Source: an uncultured Prevotellaceae bacterium
GTDB lineage: Bacteria > Bacteroidota > Bacteroidia > Bacteroidales > Muribaculaceae
Length of the DNA stretch: 62,122 nt
Direction: 5' to 3'
NCBI GenBank assembly: GCA_945921235.1
Contig: CAMEKH010000002.1
Span: 1 to 62,122 of the forward strand
Below are positions 5,716 to 48,432 of the stretch, piece by piece. A program made the translations under genes and the position numbers. Numbering within the stretch: the first letter of the stretch is position 1; each line of letters begins with the position of its first letter. A model generated the notes under the pieces. That model ran no database searches. It was not told the DNA's origin and saw only the letters and a list, made by a program, of their open reading frames with translations.

Positions 5716-6382
5716 ACCCGTAGCCCAATTTAGTTATAATATTATTCCCGTAGTCACCAATTTTTTTGCGCAGGCGGTTGATGTTAACATCAATTGTGCG
5801 GTCAATCACCACCACATCATCTTCCCATACGCGGTCAAGAATCTCCTCACGAGAGAAGATGCGACCACGATTGAGTAAAAGAAGTTTAAGAATTTCAAAT
5901 TCCTTTTTAGTCAAAGCGACTTCAGTATCTCCGATATGGCATTGTTTTTTAGCGATATTCAATGATAGATTCCCGAAAACAACAATATCATCGGATTTAT
6001 CTCCTTTTTCGGCTCTACGAAGCACGCTTTTTACTCTCAATATAAGCTCTTTCATTGAAAAAGGCTTTTTGATATAGTCGTCGATTCCGCGGCTAAAGCC
6101 TTCCACCAAATCATCTTCTTGGTCCTTGGCAGTACAGATGATTATAGGCACATCTTTCACCTCCGGGGTATTACGAATTGTAGTAGCCAATTCAAATCCG
6201 CTCATTTCGCCCATCATCACATCGAGAATAAATAATCGGTAATCGGATAGATTGCGTTGGAGAACTTCTTCGGCAGAATTTGCAGTGTCGACAGCATAAC
6301 CTTCAAGTTCGAGATTCAGCTTAATAACGTCGCAAATTGTTTCTTCGTCGTCAACAACAATGATTTTATTGCCATGAGCCAT
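5699..6382 (-). CDS. OmpR/PhoB-family response regulator
   Basis: DNA-binding partner of the adjacent kinase, 227 residues from the ATG at 6382. An earlier in-frame start at 6475 would lie upstream of the -7 box and add a non-homologous leader, so I reject it. Receiver residues: acidic pocket Asp11/Asp12, phospho-acceptor Asp54 in FILDVMMGE, Thr84 and Lys106 in KKPF. The winged helix (about 130-227) ends with the typical NRLRKKIG...TKLGYGYGF segment. It is first in an operon with the kinase and the PiT permease. The layout resembles PhoB-PhoR; an RprY-like role is also possible. Confidence 0.93.
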   Translation of the reverse strand: MAHGNKIIVVDDEETICDVIKLNLELEGYAVDTANSAEEVLQRNLSDYRLFILDVMMGEMSGFELATTIRNTPEVKDVPIIICTAKDQEDDLVEGFSRGIDDYIKKPFSMKELILRVKSVLRRAEKGDKSDDIVVFGNLSLNIAKKQCHIGDTEVALTKKEFEILKLLLLNRGRIFSREEILDRVWEDDVVVIDRTIDVNINRLRKKIGDYGNNIITKLGYGYGFKE

Positions 6383-46905: not shown

Positions 46906-46943
46906 AATAAATTCGTATCAAATTTTATATAATACTATTTTAT

Positions 46944-46997
46944 AATTCGCATGGCTTTTTGAGTAAGCGGTTGCTTTAACTAAAAGTTGTGCGAATT
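46944..46997 (+). repeat. Long imperfect stem-loop downstream of uvrA
   Basis: AATTCGCA (46944-46951) pairs with TGCGAATT (46990-46997). Inside it CTTTT/AAAAG, AGT/ACT and AAGC-GGTT-GCTT continue the stem with small bulges. No T-run follows, so it does not look like an ordinary terminator. Confidence 0.5.
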
Positions 46998-47656
46998 TAT
47001 TTATTGCTATTTGATAGAATTATTTTGATATTTTTATAGTGCTTATTTGTGCGCGTGCTGTATCACGCGTAAGAGGTTTTAAATCAATTTATTATATAGT
47101 GAATTGCGCCGATTTAAGTCTTTAAGAGTGTAATGCTATGCATAATTGGGTAGGAGTAGTAAGAAATTTTGAATTTTCAGTCGGTTGAGCATATAAATAG
47201 CAGAATAATTGTCGTTTTGGTAATTATACCACGCATAGTTTGCGTGTGTGAATGTGAATTGCTAAATATGATTGAGCAATTCAAATCGATTGTATGTTCA
47301 TGAGTTCGCATTTGGATAATGTAGAGTAGGGTAGTTGCATTTATTATTAATTGATTGGTGTCGTAAATATAAAAATAGAATTATTTACAAAACATACTTA
47401 TGAGCTATATACAATATTTTTAAATTGACATAAAATATTGATTTACAATTATTTATAATCATTATTTAAAGATTTTATGTAAATATATTGAAGTGTTGTG
47501 CGACCGGGTGGTAGTGTGAATGAATTCATCGATGAAATATTATGTAAATTGCATAAATACAATAAAATAGATGTAAAAACATAAATAATTTATTTAGGTT
47601 TGGAGTTGTGTGATGAAAACGGGAAATAAATGCGAATTACAATCGCAAACTTTACT

Positions 47657-47672
47657 ATATTTGCAAATATAA
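47657..47672 (+). promoter_or_regulatory. Upstream promoter/operator of the XRE gene: perfect 16-bp palindrome
   Basis: TATATTTGCAAATATA is its own reverse complement, and its first eight bases are a TAnnTTTG box. It lies 50 bases upstream of a nearly identical second site. No good TTG element precedes it. Confidence 0.5.
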
Positions 47673-47683
47673 ATATTAAAAAT

Positions 47684-47723
47684 TTTGATGTTTCAAAACA
47701 AAATAGTATATTTGCAAAATATA
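47684..47723 (+). promoter_or_regulatory. Main promoter/operator of the XRE gene: TTTG-N19-TATATTTG inside a palindrome
   Basis: TTTG at 47684-47687 and TATATTTG at 47707-47714 are 19 bases apart, the normal spacing. The box is part of TATATTT-GCA-AAATATA (47707-47723), arms of 7 bp. The start codon follows 19 bases after the palindrome. Confidence 0.6.
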
Positions 47724-47742
47724 ATTTCAAAACGTAAATAAT

Positions 47743-48288
47743 ATGGATATCGTTTCTCGCATCAAATTCTTCTTAAATTATAGGGGTATTGCGAGTTCCC
47801 AATTTGCTGATACTTGCGAAATACCTCGACCTACTGTTTCTCAGTTGCTAAATGGCAGAAATAAGAAGGTTAGTGACGAAGTAATATCTAAAATTCATAA
47901 TGCATATCCTGAATTATCAATTATGTGGTTGATGTTTGGTGAAGAACCAATGATAGTAAATTCAGAGCACAAATTGATACAGCCAAAAGTTGCTGAGAAT
48001 TTAAAAATTGAATCGAATTCCGAATCTATGTCAATCGATGAGAATCTCAAGCATCAAGATGAAAAGCGAATTTTGTTTTTTAACGATACTGAAGTGCCGC
48101 AAGATATCTCAAACGATTCAGAGAATAAATCTTCACAAATTCCAATATCGAGAGTAATTGAGAATTTTGCGAGAAGTGTTGAGCATAACGATGTAAATAC
48201 AGAAAAGAGTGGCGAAAAGCACATTGTGAATGTTATGGTATTCTATTCCGATAATAGTTTCGTATCATTTGTTCCCGAAAAACGTTAG
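47743..48288 (+). CDS. XRE/Cro-CI-type helix-turn-helix regulator
   Basis: 181 residues. The N-terminal 70 residues form a Cro/CI-type DNA-binding domain (SRIKFFLNYRGIASSQFADTCEIPRPTVSQLLNGRNKKVSDEVISKI), followed by the WLMFGEEPMI segment common in Bacteroidota XRE proteins. Residues about 80-150 are acidic, polar and low in complexity; the end (HIVNVMVFYSDNSFVSFVPEKR) is beta-like. The gene stands alone, AT-rich, between an unusual gap and tRNA-Arg. Palindromes overlapping both upstream boxes suggest self-control. No toxin, phage or partner gene is adjacent, so targets are unknown. Confidence 0.82.
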   Translation: MDIVSRIKFFLNYRGIASSQFADTCEIPRPTVSQLLNGRNKKVSDEVISKIHNAYPELSIMWLMFGEEPMIVNSEHKLIQPKVAENLKIESNSESMSIDENLKHQDEKRILFFNDTEVPQDISNDSENKSSQIPISRVIENFARSVEHNDVNTEKSGEKHIVNVMVFYSDNSFVSFVPEKR

Positions 48289-48304: not shown

Positions 48305-48335
48305 TTGGATATTTGTGTTAAAAGCATTATCTTTG
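48305..48335 (+). promoter_or_regulatory. Promoter of tRNA-Arg (TTG-N20-TATCTTTG)
   Basis: TTG at 48305-48307 and TATCTTTG at 48328-48335 with exactly 20 bases between. The tRNA begins 21 bases after the box. Confidence 0.75.
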
Positions 48336-48356
48336 CAGAGCTTTTGCGAAAAGGTA

Positions 48357-48430
48357 GGTCCGGTAGCTCAGCTGGATAGAGCAACAGCCTTCTAAGCTGT
48401 GGGTCTTGGGTTCGAATCCCAACCGGATCA
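48357..48430 (+). tRNA. tRNA-Arg (anticodon TCT)
   Basis: 74 bases fold into a standard cloverleaf: acceptor GGTCCGG/CCGGATC with one G-T pair, D stem GCTC/GAGC, anticodon stem ACAGC/GCTGT with loop CTTCTAA (anticodon TCT, reads AGA), and T arm TTGGG-TTCGAAT-CCCAA. The discriminator is A and CCA is not encoded. It has its own promoter and terminator. Confidence 0.97.
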
Positions 48431-48432
48431 CG

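Follow-up and report, generated by a model that had tools for sequence, protein, structure and literature searches.

A putative operator array on the promoter of an XRE regulator gene in Muribaculaceae, with related motifs across Bacteroidales

The XRE gene, its product and its relatives

The window, i.e. the whole 62,122-nucleotide stretch of DNA that was analysed, contains a gene for an XRE-type regulator which is preceded by a region without a long open reading frame and followed by a tRNA gene and then by an ORF on the opposite strand. The two main features are:

46906-47742, no strand assigned: 837-bp region without a long ORF, from a uvrA-like gene to the XRE gene; comparable regions precede most relatives
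47743-48288, plus strand: XRE (Cro/CI-type HTH) regulator gene, 181 aa (Pfam, AF2, Foldseek, alignment)

The initial annotation had proposed that a Cro/CI-like protein is encoded directly after two palindromes, and this was confirmed, an N-terminal Cro/CI-type HTH being recognised by Pfam, AF2 and Foldseek. The Pfam match (HTH_26, E=3e-4) is slightly below the curated cut-off, while the HTH was modelled by AF2 with pLDDT above 90, and Foldseek returned the HTH domains of DdrO, SinR and 434 Cro with E values of 6e-3 or worse. The predicted five-helix HTH of the lambda-repressor fold places the protein in the XRE / Cro-CI class. The HTH (recognition helix region IPRPTVSQLLNGRN) is followed by a variable linker and a conserved C-terminal hairpin, VMVFYSDNSFVSFVP; residues 80-160 are of low confidence in the AF2 model, and the C-terminal part was modelled as a short hairpin only. 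The hairpin (residues 164-178, window 48232-48276) is strongly conserved beyond the variable linker, with the motif FYSDNSFxSFxP, and perhaps has a role in dimerisation or signal sensing. A phage CI repressor with S24 was considered and rejected, as there was no Pfam match to a C-terminal S24 peptidase or CI dimerisation domain. An antitoxin of a type II toxin-antitoxin system (HigA, PezA-like) was rejected as well, with no adjacent toxin gene and the HigA model under its cut-off.

Relatives of the XRE protein were found in 201 of 225 Muribaculaceae genomes, nearly always in single copy, and Heminiphilus faecis has an orthologue. At lower similarity they occur in 154 of the 247 Bacteroidales genomes sampled; relatives outside Muribaculaceae, among which there may be paralogues, match only at E values between about 1e-12 and 1e-41. 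The regulator is widespread in gut bacteria and apparently unnamed. Regions of about 550-1250 bp without a long ORF precede most of the relatives (including L002-L089) despite differing neighbours, with few exceptions. In many relatives the neighbouring gene resembles pyrK in sequence, which is the sole basis of that name. The tRNA-Arg(tct) directly after the XRE gene in the window (48328-48431, tRNA start 48357) has a TATCTTTG box 29 bp upstream of the tRNA; no tRNA was found near the XRE gene within the fetched flanks of the 29 other family loci scanned.

Searches of the upstream regions against Rfam gave no match except tRNA in a first set, and in a second set only an RNase P RNA, which seems to be encoded next to the region in one genome, and a match to a miRNA family that stayed under the threshold. 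A replication origin was rejected, since 90 upstream regions contained almost no DnaA boxes and no TTATCCACA.

Core promoter and the two palindromes

Two palindromes containing -7 boxes had been described upstream of the XRE gene in the initial annotation, and are here called site 1 (TATATTTGCAAATATA) and site 2 (TATATTTGCAAAATATA). Site 1 is a perfect palindrome, as described, and lies at 47656-47671, one base away from the position given for it (47657-47672). Site 2 is located at 47707-47723 as claimed; its palindrome is of odd length and imperfect. A TAnnTTTG box is indeed present inside both palindromes, and both start with TATATTTG.

The sigma-ABfr promoters of Bacteroidota consist of TTTG, about 20 bp and TAnnTTTG (PMC7366714). 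The sequence at 47684-47714 fits this consensus with two elements:

47684-47687, plus strand: -33 box TTTG, 19 bp before the -7 box (sequence, orthologue alignment)
47707-47714, plus strand: -7 box TATATTTG, family consensus TACATTTG, 36 bp before the ATG and within site 2 (orthologue alignment; sigma-ABfr consensus of PMC7366714)

When 82 Muribaculaceae upstream sequences were aligned, anchored on the TAnnTTTG located ~37 bp before the ATG, the -7 box of the family read TTACATTTGCA, the -33 TTTG lay some 20 bp before it within AAATTTG(C/G), the spacer contained TTTCAA, and TTTRCA occurred at -38. Judged by its alignment with this conserved promoter, site 2 is the promoter of the XRE gene. The family promoter was also compared with 70 generic promoters, all taken from one genome, that of the window. 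The third base of the -7 box was C in 66 % of the orthologues and in 13 % of the generic promoters, the fourth base was A in 95 % compared to 26 %, and CAA was present at the spacer position in 42/82 and 3/70, respectively. Of the two sites only site 2 is a promoter; site 1 has no TTTG 19-21 bp upstream and, lacking a -33 box, is probably an auxiliary operator. One subclade of relatives (L042, L044, L086, L087 and L088) has neither the TAnnTTTG promoter at about -37 nor TTTRCAAA sites, with the HTH nearly unchanged, and its regulation has possibly been rewired.

When the 837-bp intergenic region was shuffled with its dinucleotides preserved, 8 % of the copies contained a perfect palindrome with 8-bp arms, and the palindrome alone is therefore weak evidence for an operator; another one is present at 5778 in the 62-kb window. 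The exact site 1 16-mer, which had been suggested as a query for predicting a regulon, occurs only once in the 2.46-Mb genome and does not serve that purpose. Conservation upstream of close orthologues had also been named as a check, and it gave a divided result: both full palindromes are lost in the same-genus orthologues L002 and L003, and their cores are kept. At site 1 the remnant in both is ATTTRCAAAT, at a similar distance, and at site 2 the right arm is lost in both (TATATTTGCAAAGTGTAA, TATATTTGCAAAGTAAAA) with TATATTTGCAAA kept. As evidence, the 16-bp palindromes as written are weak, and the motif conserved among the orthologues is, at the level of sequence comparison, strong.

A conserved dyad on the promoter and its link to the regulator

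The motif comparison covered the upstream sequences of about 160 XRE relatives, 70 of them from other Bacteroidales families. In an unbiased search of 250 bp upstream of these 70, TTACA-N2-TGTAA was by far the top dyad, present in 35/70 upstream sequences compared to 0.2 expected in shuffles (z 49). In the same set, 25 of the 59 TTRCANNTGYAA sites lie exactly on the TAnnTTTG box, which argues that the -7 box forms half of the operator. The idea that the box doubles as a half-site was thus well founded, and the predicted fused element reads TTACA-TT-TGCAA in Muribaculaceae and TTACA-TT-TGTAA in the other families. Many genomes of the other families carry two or three TTACA-N2-TGTAA dyads 23-58 bp apart.

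The dyad of Muribaculaceae is looser, TTTRCA-NN-TGYAAA with the core TTTRCAAA. Some 37 bp ahead of the ATG, one copy coincides with the -7 box (TTACATTTG(C/T)A), and others lie over the -33 box, the spacer and the start region. Matches to the 14-mer TTTRCANNTGYAAA with at most 3 mismatches in the 82 Muribaculaceae upstream sequences were concentrated at offsets from the -7 box of -38 (46/82), -24 (39/82), -2 (76/82, a count partly forced by TAnnTTTG itself, for which reason the comparison with generic promoters matters) and +18/+19 (24/82), with 0.57 per position in shuffles. The peaks at -24, -2 and +18/+19 overlap the core promoter, where a bound protein would be expected to block the polymerase. 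Outside the core promoter, words around TTTGCAAA and TTTACAAA were the most enriched. The motif density was 4.93/kb in the 250 bp upstream, compared to 0.15/kb in coding DNA and 0.04/kb in the reversed control. A 7-bp heptad periodicity of TTTRCAAA was considered and rejected, as the near-cluster signal is explained by positions shared through descent.

The candidate operator is accordingly not TATATTTGCAAATATA as such; it is the 14-bp dyad TTTRCA-NN-TGYAAA, conserved among the relatives upstream of their own XRE gene. Fusion of an operator to the -7 box in Bacteroidales is well supported by these comparisons and apparently undescribed; a literature text match for five operator strings found none concerning Bacteroidota.

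In the window, six near-matches to the dyad (at most 3 mismatches) lie in 47630-47742, spanning 105 bp, compared to 1.06 in shuffles (p=0.0005), and both reported sites are included. Their starts are 47636, 47654, 47660, 47684, 47705 and 47725. The features of the array are:

47636-47649, plus strand: operator-like dyad ATTACA-AT-CGCAAA, 2 mismatches (motif scan)
47654-47667, plus strand: operator-like dyad ACTATA-TT-TGCAAA, 3 mismatches, in an overlapping register of site 1 (motif scan)
47660-47673, plus strand: best operator match of the window, TTTGCA-AA-TATAAA, 1 mismatch, overlapping site 1 (47656-47671); core ATTTRCAAAT in L002 and L003
47683-47698, plus strand: inverted repeat TTTTG-ATGTTT-CAAAA on the -33 box and spacer, absent from the initial annotation (family dyad AAATTTG-N7-CAAWTTT)
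47705-47718, plus strand: operator-like dyad on the -7 box, AGTATA-TT-TGCAAA, 3 mismatches to TTTRCANNTGYAAA (match with at most 3 mismatches at the same offset in 76/82 orthologues)
47725-47738, plus strand: operator-like dyad TTTCAA-AA-CGTAAA between promoter and ATG, 3 mismatches (family peak +18/+19)

These sites are degenerate, the best having 1 mismatch and the copy on the -7 box 3, and they are weaker than the sites of the other families. A model with two sites is replaced by an array at 47636, 47660, 47684, 47705 and 47725 with the overlapping register at 47654. The near-five-turn spacing of sites 1 and 2 is numerically correct (starts 51 bp apart, 4.9 turns at 10.5 bp); with an array of sites instead of two, the argument for one face of the helix covers just one pair within it.

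A second cluster of the motif, absent from the initial annotation, is found further upstream, at 300-900 bp in the other families and mostly at 300-650 bp in Muribaculaceae, where the density is 6.1/kb in the bin from 400 to 500 bp compared to 0.1-0.3/kb beyond 800 bp. It is weak in the window and strong in other Muribaculaceae:

47384-47448, no strand assigned: far-cluster remnant, TTTACAAA at 47384-47391 and TTTACAA at 47442-47448

The TTTRCAAA spacing in the far cluster has weak peaks at 14, 35 and 57 bp (period about 10.5-11), which we do not claim as a result. The cluster suggests DNA looping or a second transcript. A consistent antisense promoter from the far cluster was not found in Muribaculaceae, and a divergent conserved RNA was rejected. 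G-rich words on the sense strand (TAGGGGAG, GGGGTAAATAGGGGAGATTTTT) are conserved about 400-750 bp upstream in L132, L142, L159, L103 and L104, and TAGGGGAG, mostly at that distance, is common to different families. The upstream regions of L103 and L104 also contain TTTACATCGGTACATAAAAAAT. None of these stretches in the five loci matched a known RNA family.

The motif accompanies the XRE gene although the neighbouring genes change. Exact TTACANNTGTAA sites are few, with 8-15 in each of four genomes, a number which in one of them does not exceed that of the reversed control; the region upstream of the XRE gene holds 4 of the 8 sites of G425 and 5 of the 15 of G317. In a set of 30 genomes, paired sites are, by their coordinates, mostly at the XRE gene, with some elsewhere, and the genome of the window has 7 exact TTTRCANNTGYAAA sites. 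In G411 four TTACANNTGTAA dyads with a spacing of exactly 41 bp (C1:1327148-1327282) lie distant from the XRE gene and are possibly the operator array of another gene, or a repeat.

The motif also varies with the recognition region of the protein. In other families, relatives with an xQR helix have TTTGCAAA in 1/36 and TTACAnnTGTAA in 26/36, and those with an xPR helix in 6/9 and 1/9, respectively; the helix classes were used for these families only, as the helix pattern is misaligned in many Muribaculaceae sequences. In Muribaculaceae the corresponding counts are 48/89 and 4/89. This covariation is suggestive only: phylogeny is a confounder, as each motif type is largely that of one of two sets of families. 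XRE regulators are often autoregulators acting on palindromes upstream of their own gene, and 9 of 10 predictions of autoregulatory palindromes passed gel shift (PMC12565409).

Proposed mechanism, alternatives and known systems

The dyad is conserved, enriched, placed on the promoter and clustered at the XRE gene, and autorepression by occlusion is the best reading of this arrangement. We consider it likely that an XRE repressor which controls its own gene, and which is conserved in Muribaculaceae and in more distant form throughout Bacteroidales, has its promoter and its array of operators in this region. The -33 box (TTTG, 47684) and the -7 box (TATATTTG, 47707) would be used by RNA polymerase carrying the primary sigma factor of Bacteroidota. 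An XRE dimer would bind, possibly cooperatively, to degenerate copies of the 14-bp dyad, one of which coincides with the -7 box, so that the TTTG of the box would be part of the right half-site; further copies would be located on the -33 box and spacer and after the start site, with auxiliary copies (site 1 and 47636) just upstream. As the protein accumulates, the -33 box, the -7 box and the start would become covered and the gene would turn off its own transcription. The initial annotation had sketched a mechanism that holds in its general form; its palindromes as given, its restriction to two sites and its argument from helical phase do not hold.

If the palindromes were products of chance in AT-rich DNA, the -7 consensus TATATTTGC would need only AAATATA after it, and there would be no operator. 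The frequency of such palindromes in shuffled sequence, their loss as full palindromes in L002 and L003 and the restriction of the right arm of site 2 to the window all agree with this, but the cores TTTGCAAA and TTACATTTGCA and the other dyads occur far above shuffles and the reversed control, both family- and order-wide, which makes chance improbable. Even less likely, in our judgement, is that site 1, instead of being an operator, drives divergent transcription as a bidirectional element, its symmetric sequence TAnnTTTGCAAAnnTA providing a -7 box on each strand. The whole genome of the window (G000) has 8 TAnnTTTGCAAAnnTA sites (e.g. C2:47656, C16:13099, C116:1941 and C117:4735) compared to 0 in the reversed control, and upstream operator copies in several other genomes have TACATTTG on the strand facing away from the gene. 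However, on the plus strand site 1 lacks the upstream TTTG, antisense TTTG-N19-21-TAnnTTTG promoters are rare in the upstream regions, and the divergent direction has no coding gene here. Genome-wide, the symmetric TAnnTTTGCAAAnnTA elements are candidates for bidirectional promoters.

The operator could also belong to a different regulator, with the XRE gene as its target and not its own regulator. The helix is near-invariant in the family, which prevents a test of specificity within the family, and binding of the protein to its own array is a prediction; against this, exact sites elsewhere are few and often single, the clusters are mostly at the XRE gene, and the motif changes along with the XRE recognition region across families and travels with the gene. 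We regard this possibility as unlikely, and would give about the same weight to a real operator array through which the XRE protein activates, or switches between activation and repression, with the upstream cluster aiding RNA polymerase. Lambda CI activates RNA polymerase from an upstream-bound position at PRM, and many of the sites here, including the second cluster, lie upstream of the -33 box. The best-conserved copies are nevertheless on the -33 box, the -7 box and the start region, positions which normally block the polymerase.

Beyond the autorepression favoured above, a more tentative proposal, which we hold to be rather less probable than not, is that the protein is a core, so far undescribed master-type regulator of Bacteroidales which controls itself via an operator cluster fused with the -7 box together with a second one, some 300-700 bp further upstream, with looping or a second non-coding transcript, the ORF-poor region being kept beside the gene despite the change of neighbours.

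Bacteroidales are dominant gut bacteria with few known transcription-factor binding motifs. A motif upstream of one regulator in many families offers a handle on DNA-binding specificity, through a series of naturally occurring variants of helix and operator, and an example of an unusual -7 box built into an operator. The role of a widespread, apparently unnamed regulator thereby becomes testable.

The type of circuit is ordinary, an autoregulated XRE gene. From general knowledge, the array resembles the operators of lambda and 434 CI/Cro (OR, OL) in the small Cro/CI-fold HTH, in the several short degenerate dyads over the own promoter, in the two clusters split by a spacer and in the likely autoregulation. 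It differs from them in that a divergent cro-like gene was not found here, the gene is chromosomal and usually single-copy in Bacteroidales, the C-terminal part is a variable linker with a short hairpin, the -7 box TAnnTTTG itself is a dyad half, and the distance to the second cluster is only about 300-700 bp.

The Deinococcus DdrO/RDRM system provides the best Foldseek match for the HTH (6rnz, E 6e-3). The promoter of DdrO itself also bears a palindrome, which was detected with the same approach of searching upstream motifs (PMC12565409). Its operator sequence is different, a DdrO-like second domain is not recognised here, and no DNA-damage signal is known for the present regulator. The XRE autoregulators of Wang et al. 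2025 likewise have palindromes upstream of their own gene; the Results and figure legends of that paper (PMC12565409) name no Bacteroidales regulator with TTACA-NN-TGTAA. The core promoter shares the consensus of the sigma-ABfr promoters of Bacteroidota (PMC7366714) and differs from them in that an extra dyad, not seen in generic promoters, constrains both the spacer and the nn positions of the -7 box.
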